From: Thermoprotei archaeon
Lineage (GTDB): Archaea; Thermoproteota; Thermoprotei; Thermofilales; B15-G2
DNA length: 44,575 nt
Assembly: GCA_003650815.1 (NCBI GenBank)
Contig: QMSB01000004.1
Span: 1 to 44,575 of the forward strand
Direction of reading: 5' to 3'
Shown here: one piece after another, positions 3,078 to 36,389 of the stretch
How positions within the stretch are numbered: the stretch's first letter is position 1
How the letters are laid out: each line of letters begins with the position of its first letter
Program-made: the position numbers and the translations under genes
The notes under the pieces: model-generated
Database searches by the model: none
The model's input: the letters and a program-made list of their open reading frames with translations, nothing else
Told to the model about the DNA's origin: nothing

Positions 3078-4136
3078 ATGATAGTATCTTGGTTTAATAC
3101 ACGTACTGCTTTTGAGAGAGGCGTCGAGAAGGTAATTAAGGAGCTGAATGATCTCAGAGTAGAGAAAGTCTTTCCAATAATAGTGGACGGCTCAGGGTCT
3201 CTCTACGATAGTATTCTCTACGATAAGGGAAGAAGTATCATTGGGGACGAGAAGCTGAAAGAGCTTTTCGATAAACTGCATAAGGCTGGAATAGAAGTTC
3301 ATCCGTGGATAGTTTCTCTTAATAGGCCTCATCCAGACTTTGTATCTAGACATAGAGACTGGTATGTAGTGAACAGGAACGGAGTGAGCTGTGTAGACAA
3401 GCCGCCTTACGTGGATCACTACAAGTGGTTATGTCCTTCGAGAGAAACTACGAGAAGATTTCTCGCAGAAACGGCTCTTGAAATAGTTTCTAAGTTCGAC
3501 GTTGAGGGTGTGCACTTAGACTACATTAGATTACCCGATGTAATTTTACCGATTCACTTCAGGAAGAGATATAAGCTACCTTTAGAGGCTAAGATATTGC
3601 CAGAATACGACTACTGTTACTGTAGCGTATGTAGGCAGAAGTATAAGGAGGAAACAGGAATAGATCCTATCGAGATAAAGTATTCTGACAAAATAAACTA
3701 TGAAAGATGGTTTAAGTGGAGAGCAAGGCAGGTATCTAGTGTAGTCGAGGAAGTCTACAAGAGTCTCAAGAAATATGATAGTGAACTAAAGCTTTCAGCA
3801 GCAGTATTTCCGACACCACTTATAGCATACAGATATGTTTTCCAGCAGTGGGCTTCCTGGAAAATAGACTTCCTGTGCCCCATGATATACCATAAATACT
3901 ACGAGAAACCAGTCGACTGGATACTAGAAGCTTCACTAGAATGTGTAGCTACAGGACGAGAAATATATGCAGGTATACACGCATACATGCTTGAAGAAAA
4001 AGAGGACGCGATGAAGGCTGTCAAACTAGCCCTTGAAAGCGGAGCAGACGGAGTGTGCTTCTTCCTCTACCCATTCCCTTATGAAAAACAAGTAGAGTAT
4101 TTCAAAGAGGCTGTAAGAAAATATACAGCTACTTAA
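3078..4136 (+). CDS. Glycoside hydrolase-like TIM-barrel protein (GHL10-like)
   Basis: IEVHPWIVSLN, EGVHLDYIRLP, CPMIYHKYY pattern of family 10-like glycosyl hydrolases. Confidence 0.75.
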   Translation: MIVSWFNTRTAFERGVEKVIKELNDLRVEKVFPIIVDGSGSLYDSILYDKGRSIIGDEKLKELFDKLHKAGIEVHPWIVSLNRPHPDFVSRHRDWYVVNRNGVSCVDKPPYVDHYKWLCPSRETTRRFLAETALEIVSKFDVEGVHLDYIRLPDVILPIHFRKRYKLPLEAKILPEYDYCYCSVCRQKYKEETGIDPIEIKYSDKINYERWFKWRARQVSSVVEEVYKSLKKYDSELKLSAAVFPTPLIAYRYVFQQWASWKIDFLCPMIYHKYYEKPVDWILEASLECVATGREIYAGIHAYMLEEKEDAMKAVKLALESGADGVCFFLYPFPYEKQVEYFKEAVRKYTAT

Positions 4137-4980
4137 CTCTAGCTGTAATAGCTCTAACGATATCTGTCTTAGTAACTATTCCTACTAAATCTTCTTTTTC
4201 ATTAACTACAGGTAAGCCGCTGATACCGTGATGTATCATAAGTCTAGCAGCTGAAACCAAGTCTTCGTTATCCCTCACTGTAATGGGATCAGGAGTCATT
4301 AAGTCTTCTGCAAGCGGTATTAGCGGAACCTTAACAACACCTCGTCTACCTCTTTCTCTGATATACTTAGCTTTTCTAAGATGATACTCTCTCATTATGA
4401 ACGGAGAAGAGAAAGTTACATCTCTTATAGTTATTATTCCTACGGGTTTTCTTTTTTCAACAACAACGATCCTAGAAATATTGTATCGAGCTAGCAGGTC
4501 TATTACTTTCATAGCCGAGTGATAGGGCTTGACTGTCACGACATTCTCTGTCATAAATTCTCTCACTAAAGCCAGTCCAGCACATTTATCCTTGTAGAAA
4601 TTACATAGATCAGTTTTAGTCAGGATCCCCTCTAAGGTCTCGTCTTCAGGGTCGAGAACTACTAGAGAGCTTATGGCTTTATTCACCATGGTTCTCGCAG
4701 CGTCAACTAGAGATTCGTCTGGATAGGTCGTGATAATGTTCTTTGTCATAACGTCTTTGACTAGTACCTCGTCTATGTCGTGTTCATTTTCTATACCTTC
4801 TAAGATTACTCGGGCAAAATCTTTTTGAGTGAATATTCCAATAGGCTTACTGTCTTCAATAACAATCACTCTATTGACGTTATATCTTAACATGAGTTTT
4901 CTAACATGAATTAAGGAATCGTTAGGGTGTACGACAACAGGGTCTAGTGTCATATAGTCTTTAACATAGTATCTCGTCAT
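4129..4980 (-). CDS. Protein with four CBS domains
   Basis: Four repeats of the type VKDVMTKNIITTYPDESLVDAARTMVNKAISSLVVLD...GILTKTDL. Confidence 0.92.
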   Translation of the reverse strand: MTRYYVKDYMTLDPVVVHPNDSLIHVRKLMLRYNVNRVIVIEDSKPIGIFTQKDFARVILEGIENEHDIDEVLVKDVMTKNIITTYPDESLVDAARTMVNKAISSLVVLDPEDETLEGILTKTDLCNFYKDKCAGLALVREFMTENVVTVKPYHSAMKVIDLLARYNISRIVVVEKRKPVGIITIRDVTFSSPFIMREYHLRKAKYIRERGRRGVVKVPLIPLAEDLMTPDPITVRDNEDLVSAARLMIHHGISGLPVVNEKEDLVGIVTKTDIVRAITARVK

Positions 4981-20803: not shown

Positions 20804-21139
20804 TCAGATATTATGGGAAATTTCTTTAAGTGATTTAAGTAGCTTTTCTAAGACCTGCTCTTTTCCCGCATTTTTAATCTCTACTACTTTCACCCTGCTT
20901 CTGGTTCCGTGAACTATGCTGACCTGATGCTCGGGAAAGCCTATTTTGAGTAAAAATTTCTTAAGAGCGGCGTTGGCTCTTCCGTGAATCGTGGGCTCTG
21001 GTGTCAGATAAACTAGTTCTCCTCCCTCTACTACAAGTTTCTCAACTGGTTTCTCACACCTTACTACTATTCTAACTCTAGTACCTCGTGGAGTTTCCTC
21101 TAAGCTTTTTTCTAAAACTTTCTCACTCTCGGGTCTCAG
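20804..21139 (-). CDS. DUF167/YggU-family protein, non-canonical start (absent from ORF track)
   Basis: Minus frame KVLEKSLEETPRGTRVRIVVRCEKPVEKLVVEGGELVYLTPEPTIHGRANAALKKFLLKIGFPEHQVSIVHGTRSRVKVVEIKNAGKEQVLEKLLKSLKEISHNI*. No in-frame ATG/GTG/TTG before the conserved region; CTG at 21139 is the only near-cognate after the upstream stop. Confidence 0.75.
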   Translation of the reverse strand: MRPESEKVLEKSLEETPRGTRVRIVVRCEKPVEKLVVEGGELVYLTPEPTIHGRANAALKKFLLKIGFPEHQVSIVHGTRSRVKVVEIKNAGKEQVLEKLLKSLKEISHNI

Positions 21140-23057
21140 CTTCGATCACCTCTTTCTTCTCAACTACCTCTACAGGAACAACTGCTCTAGCCATTTCCCT
21201 GATTATGTCCATTTTACATATAGTTCCAACTAGGCGCCCCTTTTCGTCTACAACAGGGACTCCGTCAACATTGTAGTCAAACATTAGCTGAATAGCTTTC
21301 GCAACACTGTCTTTTAAGGAAATTCTTGCTTTTACGGGAATACAGGCATCTTGTGCAGTAAGTGGAAGTATTCTGATGTATCTTGCAAGCTTCTTACCTG
21401 CCTTAACTAGTTTTCTGACCCACATTATCAGCACTGCTTTTCTTCCCTTGAGGTATTCTTCTATAGGTACGAAAACCAGCCTGCTTTCACATACTACGCC
21501 GAGTATTCTGTCTCCATCAGCTACTGTTACTGTGTCTAAGTTGAGTGATCTCATTTTCCTAAGCACGTGTAGCAGTGAGTGATGAGGATGAACTACGCTG
21601 AAGTCTCTAGGCATAACTACATTTTCTACTAACGGTATGTCTTGTGAATGCTTCAAGTAGGCTTTAACCACATCGTCTTTAGTGACTAATCCAATGATAT
21701 CGCCTTTCTTGTTCACAACAAACACGGCGTCTATATCATTAGCGACCATCTGATATGCTATTTCCTCTAGGCTAGCACTTTCCTCTACTTTAGGGACGTC
21801 TTTAACTACAATATCTTCAACTAGTGCTGGCTTCTCCAGAAATGTTACGCCAAAACGAGTCTTCATTAGGGGCTCTGCGTGAGGACTTGGTCTCTTCCAG
21901 TATCTTCCATGTTCAGCTATATAGTAGAGGATATTTCTTCGAGAAACTACTCCAACTATTTCACCGTTATAGTCTACTACTATGCAGTGACTAGATTTAA
22001 ACTTCAGTAAGCTCTTACGGCAGTGCTCAATAGTATCTTTTATAAATACTATTGGGAGGTCTTTTCTAACTATAGTTGACGCGACTAAACCTACTTTAGC
22101 AGGAGCTACTTTGCGAGGAGTAACTACTAGCTGTAAGAGTGCTCCAGTAGGCTTGCGCACAACTCCCTGCGAGTATGCCTCTATGGGTATAGGTACGGGC
22201 ATAGGGACTACGGGCTCTCTGCCAGGTTTTCTTCCCTCAATATAGGCTCTAACTACATCTTCTATTGTGACTATACCCACCAGTTGCTCTTTTTCATTTA
22301 CTACAGGTAGTACGCTTAAACGTGTTCTAGTCATGAAGTCAGCTACTATATCTATAGGAGTATCAAGACTTACTAAGGGCACTCCTCTTCTTGTTAGCCT
22401 AAATACTTTCATTACGTAAGATACTCTTGGACCTCGAGCCATTATCTCCTGTTTCGCTTCTCTCCTGAAGAACCATCGACTAGTCTCTATGAAATCTTCT
22501 GCTGTGACTATTCCTTGGATTCTCCCTTCATCGCTTAAGACTACCGCTGCTTTAGCTCCATAGCCCACGATGCGCCACCACAGTTTATCTACTCTATCGC
22601 CGCCTTTGCAGACGATCACTTTATCTTCTTCATCAAGGCTTGTGTAAACTTCAGCAACAGTACTTGCTTTATGTGTAACTCCTTCTTCTCTGAGCTTATC
22701 GAGTATATCGAAGAGGGATATTGTTCCAACAACTTTTCTCTCGAAAGGAGAAGAGACTACAAGAGCTTCCTCTAGTCCAAACTCTACCATTATGTTGTAA
22801 GCTTCCTCTAGGCTCATTTCAGGGGTCAGAAGGGGGTGTTCTCTAACAACGTCGCGTACTCTAAGTCTGGATTTCTTACTAGTTGCTATCAACACGTCGT
22901 GTAGCGTGATGAAACCTACACAACTATCGCTAAAAGGATCTTTAAAGACGGGGGCTACCTTAAGCATAAGTTTTCTAAATATTCTCCTACAGTCAACTAA
23001 GCGCTCGTTGAGCAGAATTCGGATGCCTAGAGGAACTACTATCTCCTTTATTTTCAT
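21123..23057 (-). CDS. Large protein with about eight tandem CBS domains
   Basis: Repeated CBS signatures such as VSLDTPIDIVADFMTRTRLSVLPVVNEKEQLVGIVTIEDVVRAY. Confidence 0.92.
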   Translation of the reverse strand: MKIKEIVVPLGIRILLNERLVDCRRIFRKLMLKVAPVFKDPFSDSCVGFITLHDVLIATSKKSRLRVRDVVREHPLLTPEMSLEEAYNIMVEFGLEEALVVSSPFERKVVGTISLFDILDKLREEGVTHKASTVAEVYTSLDEEDKVIVCKGGDRVDKLWWRIVGYGAKAAVVLSDEGRIQGIVTAEDFIETSRWFFRREAKQEIMARGPRVSYVMKVFRLTRRGVPLVSLDTPIDIVADFMTRTRLSVLPVVNEKEQLVGIVTIEDVVRAYIEGRKPGREPVVPMPVPIPIEAYSQGVVRKPTGALLQLVVTPRKVAPAKVGLVASTIVRKDLPIVFIKDTIEHCRKSLLKFKSSHCIVVDYNGEIVGVVSRRNILYYIAEHGRYWKRPSPHAEPLMKTRFGVTFLEKPALVEDIVVKDVPKVEESASLEEIAYQMVANDIDAVFVVNKKGDIIGLVTKDDVVKAYLKHSQDIPLVENVVMPRDFSVVHPHHSLLHVLRKMRSLNLDTVTVADGDRILGVVCESRLVFVPIEEYLKGRKAVLIMWVRKLVKAGKKLARYIRILPLTAQDACIPVKARISLKDSVAKAIQLMFDYNVDGVPVVDEKGRLVGTICKMDIIREMARAVVPVEVVEKKEVIEAETRE

Positions 23058-32714: not shown

Positions 32715-32799
32715 GCCCCCGTGGCTTAGTGGTAGAGTGCCCGCGTGGTAAGGCTCTCTACAGAGCGGGTGGACCCGGGTTCGAATCCCGGCGGGGGCT
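32715..32799 (+). tRNA. tRNA-Thr(GGT) with about 13-nt intron at 37/38 (approx. 32751-32763)
   Basis: Acceptor GCCCCCG/CGGGGGC, D-arm GCTT..GAGT, anticodon stem CCCGC/GCGGG, T-arm CCGGG-TTCGAAT-CCCGG, U73; TGGTAA loop places GGT at 34-36. TATA-like TTAAATA at 32686-32692. Confidence 0.92.
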
Positions 32800-32806
32800 C
32801 TATGCA

Positions 32807-33616
32807 CTAAAGCAGTTTGATGGAAGGTTTTCTGGATACAAATTCGCAGTACTCATCTCCCTTCGAGAGACACCTCGTTTCGATCAATGAAATTCTCTCA
32901 CCTATTACATAAGATATAAACCCTGCTAATATTCCTCTTAAATAGTGGCTTCGAGGAGTTTTACTCATACCCTTAAATGGTCTGCATTCAAAGCTATCAT
33001 ATAGCCTAAATCTAATTCTCTTTTCTTCTATATCGAATTCTACCAGCTCGTAGTCCTTAATCCAGTTCAAAGCCTTAAATATTTCAAAGCCTAAGATCAG
33101 CAGATTTTTTCCAGTAACTCCGGCGTTCACGCTCCATTTTTCTCCCATTATGTATCCTGCTCGATAGCCTAGATGGTACATGAAGGCGAGGCCGGCGACT
33201 CCAAAGTACTGGTCTAGGGCTTTATAAAGCTCGTATAGCCATGCATCGCGCTCTACTATAGCCTCGCCTCCCAGAGTAGTTATTGAGGCCTTAAATGGTG
33301 GTAGGAGTATTTCTCCGATTTCCTTGGCTCCATGTTCTATGCCTAAAACCACGTCTAGTTCTTTGAGTTCTTCAAATATCTTCTCTGGCGGGACATCAGC
33401 TTCCGTAAGATCTATTTGTGAGATCCAGTAAGCCTCTTTCTCTTCGGCGGGGGCTTCAATAATACCACTAAGAATGTTTACATTATATTTTGCTAGTAGC
33501 TGAGAAACTTTCATTAAGGCTCCGGGCTTGTTGACGAGTTTCAGAGCTATATAAGCTATCTTTCTTCCCTTAACTTTTCTGACTATGAAAGGATAAGTTA
33601 TTCTGTAGCTGGACAC
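32807..33616 (-). CDS. ACT-domain plus V4R (4-vinyl reductase) domain protein
   Basis: ALKLVNKPGALMKVSQLLAKYNVNILSG and C-terminal ETRCLSKGDEYCEFV. Confidence 0.87.
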   Translation of the reverse strand: MSSYRITYPFIVRKVKGRKIAYIALKLVNKPGALMKVSQLLAKYNVNILSGIIEAPAEEKEAYWISQIDLTEADVPPEKIFEELKELDVVLGIEHGAKEIGEILLPPFKASITTLGGEAIVERDAWLYELYKALDQYFGVAGLAFMYHLGYRAGYIMGEKWSVNAGVTGKNLLILGFEIFKALNWIKDYELVEFDIEEKRIRFRLYDSFECRPFKGMSKTPRSHYLRGILAGFISYVIGERISLIETRCLSKGDEYCEFVSRKPSIKLL

Positions 33617-34244: not shown

Positions 34245-34276
34245 AACTTAAAGTCTTATGAGGATATAGTATGACT

Positions 34277-34341
34277 GCGGATGACTGGTTTTCGGGGAGC
34301 CTGAGGGACTCCCGATGAGGTAGCCCTTATCCCGCTGACGC
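34277..34341 (+). ncRNA. C/D-box-like sRNA candidate
   Basis: cgGATGA(C)-16 nt-CTGA(D')-ggactccc-GATGA(C')-16 nt-CTGA(D), GCG/CGC terminal stem; GC-rich in an AT-rich intergenic gap. C boxes match only GATGA of RTGATGA and spacers are long. Confidence 0.55.
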
Positions 34342-34395
34342 TATAGAAATTTTTCTCCTGTAAAATGTTTAAATAGTAAAATAATAAGTATAGTA

Positions 34396-35481
34396 TTGAT
34401 GCAGTATCTTTCTTCCGTGAAGCATGTTCTGCCTTCCAGTATTCTTAGGGAGGCTTTGAGCAAAGCTATTGATATTAATGAGGCTGAGGTCCCTGTAGCC
34501 GATGAAAATTCACGATACTTAGGAGTAGTAGATCTCAGGCCCCTGTTTCTTCCCTCGACAGATATACTTGATACACGTGTCTCAAATATTATGGTTAAGT
34601 ATCCTACTCTCTCCGAGGAGTTCTTTTCACCTGAAGAAGCTATGAGTATTATGATTAATAGTGGTGTTAGAGGAGTTCCAGTAGTTAGGGGTAAGAGTGT
34701 TTATACAGGAATGTTTTATCATAGAAATGCACTAGAGTATCTTAGAGATAGAGGCTTTGGGAGCAAAATTAAGGTTAACCAAGTAATGAGAACAGTGGTT
34801 CCCTGCGTTTTTTCTGAAGATACTCTCGCTAAAGCTGCTGCTGTTATGAGAAGGTATAAGGTTTCAAGAGTTATTGTTACTGAAGAGAGGAGAGGTATTA
34901 TTAAACCTATAGGCGTGCTTACTAGAACTGATCTTCTTAGAATTCTCTCGAAGTATAGCAAGGACAGGGCGAGTTACGGTGAAGTTGTCGGAGAAAAGTA
35001 TAGATTTCTTTCTCAGAGAGTTCGAGAATTCGTATCATTTAAACTAATTACCATAGACTACAATGAGCCTATATCTAACGCTATAGCCCTAATGCTAGAC
35101 AACGATGTTAGGAGTCTCCCTATAGTAAAGAACTCTGAGCTAATAGGGCTTATCGCTTCTACGGATATAATTAAAACTTACGTCAGGTACCTCACTTTAA
35201 AGGAGAAAGCGAAGAGAGTTTACTATAAAGTTCACTGTAACGTAGAGGAGCTTAAATCGACTATAGAAAGCATTATTTTATCTAAAAGAATTCCTCCAGG
35301 CGTTAGTGTCGACGTAGAGTTCTATAGGCGTAGAGGTAATCTATATGAAGTCTACGTGAGGTTTAGAACATTCAACCGATTTGTTGTCTACGGCGATACT
35401 GCGAGAGGAGTAGAGAGAGCATTAAAAGTTCTCAGAAAAGCCATAGACTACTGTAGGGCACGCATTTTTGAAATAAGATAA
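34396..35481 (+). CDS. CBS-domain protein with C-terminal HPF/YfiA-like domain
   Basis: CBS repeats followed by RVYYKVHCNVEELKSTIESIILSKRIPPGVSVDVEFYRRRGNLYEVYVRFRTFNRFVVYGDTARGVERALKVLRKAIDYCRARI, a b-a-b-b-b-a pattern. Confidence 0.8.
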   Translation: MMQYLSSVKHVLPSSILREALSKAIDINEAEVPVADENSRYLGVVDLRPLFLPSTDILDTRVSNIMVKYPTLSEEFFSPEEAMSIMINSGVRGVPVVRGKSVYTGMFYHRNALEYLRDRGFGSKIKVNQVMRTVVPCVFSEDTLAKAAAVMRRYKVSRVIVTEERRGIIKPIGVLTRTDLLRILSKYSKDRASYGEVVGEKYRFLSQRVREFVSFKLITIDYNEPISNAIALMLDNDVRSLPIVKNSELIGLIASTDIIKTYVRYLTLKEKAKRVYYKVHCNVEELKSTIESIILSKRIPPGVSVDVEFYRRRGNLYEVYVRFRTFNRFVVYGDTARGVERALKVLRKAIDYCRARIFEIR

Positions 35482-35493
35482 TGAGGTCTCTAT

Positions 35494-36285
35494 ATGAATA
35501 AAATAAGCTTCGGCATAAGCATATTAGACAGTATCCTAAAGGAAGGATACCCTAAGCAAAGCTTAGTACTACTTGTAGGGGAAGGAGGTATAGGCAAGTC
35601 GGTTTTCTTAATGCTGATTGCGAAACATAGACTAGAGCTAGGAGAGCCCGTGCTTTTCGTATGCCTGGATAATGATCCCCTAGCGATTATCGAATCATTT
35701 AAAAGCTTTGGATTCGAAGTCGATAAGTATACTGAGAAAAACTTACTAGGCTTTATTGACTGTTACTCCTTTAAAGTAAGTGCTATTTACCGCAAAAACT
35801 TAAGCTATGTTTTAGGGATAGCTGATCCTAAGAATCTTAATCAATTAGCAAAGACTATAGTTGAGGCCATGTCAAGATTAAGTGTAGGGAAAGGAGGATG
35901 TCTTCTGCTGGACAGCTTAAACGAAATATTTCTCTACAATGACTTAACTAGAGTATCTGACTTCCTTAAGGAAGTGAGGTATATTGTGATAAGGCACTAT
36001 GGAGCGTCTTTCTTCGCTACAATTCACGTAGGCTTAAGCAAGTGGGAGGAGTTAAGATCTATGATCGAGCACTTAGCTGACGGCGTAATAGAATTCAGGT
36101 TCGAGCCATCACTTAGCGAAGCAGGTGTTTCTGTAAGACAAGTTAGAGTAAAAAAGATGCGTGCAGTTCCACACGACTCAAATTGGTATAGTTTTCACAT
36201 AACTAAGGAAGGTATAGTTCCATTAAAAGTTAAAATAAGAGTTAGTGGAGAAATACAAGAGAAGCGAGATGATGATAAGAGCTAA
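35494..36285 (+). CDS. KaiC/RadA-like ATPase, single domain
   Basis: FGISILDSILKEGYPKQSLVLLVGEGGIGKSVFL (Walker A), GCLLLDSLNEIF. Confidence 0.87.
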   Translation: MNKISFGISILDSILKEGYPKQSLVLLVGEGGIGKSVFLMLIAKHRLELGEPVLFVCLDNDPLAIIESFKSFGFEVDKYTEKNLLGFIDCYSFKVSAIYRKNLSYVLGIADPKNLNQLAKTIVEAMSRLSVGKGGCLLLDSLNEIFLYNDLTRVSDFLKEVRYIVIRHYGASFFATIHVGLSKWEELRSMIEHLADGVIEFRFEPSLSEAGVSVRQVRVKKMRAVPHDSNWYSFHITKEGIVPLKVKIRVSGEIQEKRDDDKS

Positions 36286-36389
36286 GCGCGGATAAATGAC
36301 ATAGCCGGTGCTCGCTGATAACGCGTATTCTCGGCAGAGAACTTAGAGCTACTGAATAAAGATCACCAATAAGGATAAATATTCTGTAA

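Follow-up and report, generated by a model that had tools for sequence, protein, structure and literature searches.

The question and the known family

What does the 361-residue CBS-domain protein encoded at 34396..35481 (+) do, and does the ATPase gene that follows it belong to the same system? The whole stretch of DNA analysed here, hereafter called the window, is 44,575 nucleotides long and comes from an archaeal MAG of 2.0 Mb (175 contigs, 85% complete). The original prediction, made from the letters alone, proposed a candidate archaeal ribosome-hibernation module. The function has turned out to be largely right, but the kind is no longer new, since HibA was published in April 2026 (PMC13324472). 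HibA of P. abyssi (Q9UYR4; ribosome complexes PDB 9SR9-9SRF and 9T7H) consists of four CBS domains (residues 1-269) followed by an HPF/RaiA domain (270-392), and 47% of archaeal genomes carry such a protein. HibA binds within the mRNA channel and over the tRNA sites and inhibits translation in vitro, and the knockout phenotype indicates that timely recovery from stationary phase needs it (PMC13324472). The dimerisation that was also mentioned for CBS proteins does not, as far as checked, apply to them: CBS goes unmentioned in the paper that describes the dimerisation factor aRDF.

From the ORF list, homology and AlphaFold2 modelling, I conclude with a probability of about 0.8 that the window protein is a ribosome hibernation factor of the HibA type, although a divergent one whose HPF domain is shortened. 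Its architecture, the homology of its CBS module and its predicted fold come from the present analysis, while its abilities to bind ribosomes, to block translation and to bind AMP would be those of P. abyssi HibA by analogy.

A HibA-like CBS module

Pfam recognises three CBS stretches in the protein, all matching PF00571: CBS2 (34579..34746, +), CBS3 (34774..34950, +) and CBS4 (35020..35181, +). A fourth, degenerate stretch at the N-terminus (CBS1, approximately 34408..34575, +) is missed by Pfam and is seen in the alignment to HibA and in the AlphaFold2 model, which brings the number of tandem N-terminal CBS domains to the four found in HibA. The best match among PDB sequences is chain H of 9SR9, P. 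abyssi HibA itself (E 4e-20), and a profile built from 51 other HibA-type proteins gives 160 bits for the window protein and 143 bits for its orthologue from the MAG G025, described below. Foldseek against the PDB returned mostly CBS modules, including those of ribosome-bound Sri and Dri, which were matched via the CBS part.

Two features of the module deserve particular attention. After CBS3, the phmmer alignment places a long loop equivalent to the PTC loop of HibA (residues 189-206; 34960..35013, +), in which YGExxGEK is identical to residues 195-202 of the P. abyssi protein; pLDDT is low in this loop. In addition, CBS3 contains the motif GVLTRTD, whose Gly and Asp (G173 and D179) are invariant in the alignment, and CBS4 the motif GLIASTD, whose Gly is invariant. 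CBS3 and CBS4 are the pair that binds AMP and ATP in P. abyssi HibA, where neither nucleotide clearly altered ribosome binding (PMC13324472). By analogy, adenylate sensing by the variant is plausible. The mechanism that I propose is that the tethered four-CBS module would, via the loop after CBS3, take up empty tRNA sites or peptidyl-transferase sites of the 50S subunit, and that idle 70S ribosomes would thereby be blocked and protected until growth restarts.

The C-terminal domain is predicted to be a short HPF fold

The original prediction had assigned an HPF-like fold to the C-terminus, and its last 86 residues or so are indeed predicted by AlphaFold2 to follow the order β-α-β-β-β-α. The domain extends from residue 276 to residue 360 (35221..35475, +), with strands at 276-281, 304-311, 316-324 and 329-337 and helices at 284-296 and 339-360. 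The model was obtained with a 53-row alignment that includes canonical HibA, an alignment on which the high-confidence fold depends, and it reached a pLDDT of 88.7 and a pTM of 0.74, block means over residues 276-360 being mostly 82-96; from the single sequence, five of the six elements were recovered, but with so low a confidence (pLDDT 32) that this model was set aside. Comparison of the AlphaFold2 model by Foldseek, the check proposed with the original prediction, matched S30EA/HPF proteins among viral models: the second match is an S30EA/HPF protein from phage GAP32 (E 6e-4, probability 1.00), and phage PBECO4 contributes the seventh, a ribosomal subunit interface protein. The outcome of this check agrees with the prediction. 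A C-terminal HPF/RaiA domain is thus indicated by AlphaFold2 and Foldseek, sequence support coming solely through the orthologue.

This last point was quantified with canonical HibA C-termini, which are valid as HPF domains since a profile of nine of them finds many bacterial HPF structures besides P. abyssi HibA. When 51 canonical HibA C-termini were made into a profile, the window C-terminus alone obtained 2.8 bits, a value equalled by 199 of 2463 shuffles; by sequence alone it is barely above chance and not significantly similar. By contrast, the orthologue C-terminus, which is 46% identical to that of the window protein, obtained 13.5 bits, a value that none of 2340 shuffles equalled, and its alignment to HibA continues through the HPF domain, collinear into the last helix. 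A profile of the two sequences compared with the canonical profile scored 20.6, a value above the maximum of 16.4 reached by 300 column shuffles, although the reported probability is low (11.6%). The HPF-like C-terminus and the putative hibernation role originally predicted are well supported, both by the fold that is predicted and by the homology with HibA.

Measured from the alignment column of residue 272, the HPF domain of the variant is 90 residues long, as compared with 102-119 (median 111) in 51 canonical HibA proteins. HibA has two archaeal-specific HPF insertions, β13-α11 and β14-β15, and the variant, as judged from domain length and loops, appears to have neither. It seems to be devoid of regions by which HibA contacts uS19, uS12 and the mRNA exit, a point against the preferred assignment. 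Since deletion of both insertions from HibA left in vitro inhibition unchanged (PMC13324472), their absence is no argument against function.

Distribution and descent of the variant

A single close relative was found, an orthologue with 47-49% identity that is truncated at its 5' end, in the MAG G025 (Thermoprotei archaeon isolate B17_G15) of the same order; a conserved-peptide scan of the genome contigs revealed nothing beyond it. The variant was thus found in only two MAGs of the order, that of the window and G025, which are 85% and 80% complete. Canonical HibA C-termini occur in 12 of the 14 good genomes of the order, and none was detected in these two, both of which are incomplete. In these genomes the variant thus seems to take the place of canonical HibA. 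Elsewhere, canonical HibA is found as two paralogues per genome in G004 (contigs 8 and 14) and G010 (contigs 30 and 55; loci L062, L063, L066 and L067).

A carefully built CBS-module tree shows canonical HibA as one clade (93/86), and the variant falls outside it, grouped with the N-terminal modules of Dri; the split between this group and all other rows carries 93/86. The variant could accordingly be a divergent HibA, a sister of HibA, or the product of an independent fusion between a CM-5/Dri-N-like CBS module and a small HPF-like domain, which would bind ribosomes without being HibA by descent. An HPF domain shorter than that of any of the 51 canonical proteins fits such a fusion, as does the marginal rejection (AU p 0.04) of a clade uniting the variant with the HibA of f2/f5/f7, families that belong to the same order. 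The branches of the tree are long, however, and forcing the variant together with HibA costs 3.3 log units and is not rejected (AU p 0.22), nor is its grouping with f4 HibA (AU p 0.12). Furthermore, the orthologue C-terminus aligns collinearly to HibA into the last helix, and a fast-evolving HibA that lost its insertions is a simpler account than an independent fusion, which I consider unlikely. The corollary, that the HibA architecture arose twice and that the fusion protein is a second factor acting alongside Dri in one cell rather than excluding it, is similarly doubtful. A quite different reading would make the protein a CBS-regulated RNA-binding protein devoid of any hibernation role, with a KH- or dsRBD-like C-terminus, engaged in RNA metabolism or as a partner of the KaiC-like ATPase. 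It draws on the fact that the C-terminus is not identified by sequence alone: Pfam yields no match to the isolated domain up to E 10, bacterial HPF (PF02482) included, searches of Pfam, PHROGs and PDB sequences gave nothing usable, and the weak matches were to NusA (E 0.38) and PhoR (E 0.65). The order of the structural elements and the Foldseek matches to HPF proteins speak against this reading, as do a CBS module that resembles that of HibA and retains the PTC-loop motif, and the apparent substitution of the variant for canonical HibA; together they make it highly improbable. Collinear homology and apparent phyletic replacement thus favour a fast-evolving HibA or a sister of HibA.

A Dri orthologue in the same window

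The window contains a likely second hibernation factor. A gene at 21123..23057 (-), about 11 kb from the variant HibA-type gene, encodes a full-length Dri orthologue with two CBS modules (phmmer E 1.7e-87 to 9e6q_3 over residues 4-639, 9e6q being the P. calidifontis Dri complex). Assignment of the 361-aa protein itself to Dri was considered and rejected: it has one CBS module and an HPF-like domain, and the true Dri is the protein encoded at 21123-23057. Among the 81 genomes of the class, canonical HibA was found in 44 and Dri in 23, counting the lone N-terminal module of G025. Only G001 and G004 have both (Fisher p 1.5e-7, kinship ignored), in agreement with the usual mutual exclusion of HibA and Dri (PMC13324472). 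A genome with a HibA-type protein and Dri together goes against this exclusion and makes a division of labour between the two factors testable.

Other CBS proteins were observed in the two genomes. The lone module of G025, which is Dri-N-like and lacks Dri-C, is encoded on contig 44 (L132, 3006-3890, -); its neighbours lie on the opposite strand and resemble RNA polymerase subunits and ribosomal protein S12. In the window, a stand-alone four-CBS protein of 283 aa (4129-4980, -) groups with the CM protein of locus L018, beside Dri C-terminal modules.

Gene organisation and the KaiC-like ATPase

The annotated start of the variant gene is a TTG at 34396, directly followed by an ATG at 34399 from which the protein would be 360 residues long. 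The candidate TATA box TTTAAATA (34368..34375, +), about 27 nt upstream of this ATG, suggests a leaderless start there. An ORF on the same strand, which begins 12 bp downstream of the variant gene as originally noted, encodes a KaiC-like RecA-fold ATPase (35494..36285, +; PF06745, E 5e-32), and is preceded by a Shine-Dalgarno-like GAGGT (35483..35487, +). The spacing of TTTAAATA to the ATG and the presence of GAGGT ahead of the ATPase point to a leaderless first gene with which the ATPase gene is probably cotranscribed. Scans for sigma-70 promoters and terminators gave nothing above chance, and Rfam at gathering thresholds found no RNA in this stretch. Below threshold, Rfam matches to C/D-box sRNAs (sR42 and sR17) flank the two-gene unit at 34274-34340 (+) and 36265-36320 (+), and partial C-box and CTGA-like D-box motifs can be seen in them by eye. 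Upstream of the unit lie a tRNA-Pro (TGG) gene at 32715-32800 (+), which at 86 nt is longer than usual and possibly contains an intron, and an ORF at 32807-33616 (-) in which an ACT-like domain precedes a V4R domain and which may encode a ligand-sensing regulator.

The operon-like layout, with its 12 bp gap, shared strand, GAGGT and TATA-like box, is what recommends the idea of a two-gene module in which the KaiC-like ATPase would regulate or release the hibernation factor, an addition to the preferred explanation rather than an alternative to it. The pairing is not conserved, however. No KaiC-like gene lies beside the G025 orthologue or directly beside any of 20 other HibA-type loci; one of these 20 neighbourhoods contains such a gene, with other genes between, and none of the other 26 genomes of the order encodes a protein more than 34% identical to the ATPase. 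The partnership envisaged in the original prediction is consequently very unlikely.

Comparison with known hibernation factors

The variant resembles bacterial HPF, RaiA and lHPF in the predicted fold of its C-terminus and in the apparent absence of the archaeal insertions; the bacterial proteins differ in being devoid of a CBS module, and no significant sequence similarity to them was found. With Dri of P. calidifontis (PDB 9E6Q and 9E7F) it shares a CBS module and, probably, the role of a hibernation factor, and the N-terminal module of Dri is a candidate sister of the variant module; Dri, however, carries a pair of CBS modules without an HPF domain, and is encoded by a separate gene in the window. 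HibA is the closest counterpart. The variant differs from it in a degenerate CBS1, in a CBS module placed outside the HibA clade, and in an HPF domain that is some 20 residues shorter than that of its canonical relatives: the turn behind the first strand and the β2-β3 loop (RRRGN) are short, and both the W-D-P loop ahead of the last helix and the basic C-terminal tail are missing. The newly described family would thereby include a shortened form, which hints at the parts of the HPF domain that may be dispensable. What the two proteins have in common is the succession, in equal order and over a similar length, of four CBS repeats and a β-α-β-β-β-α domain of the HPF/RaiA type, together with the YGExxGEK loop after CBS3 and the conserved G..D motifs of CBS3 and CBS4.
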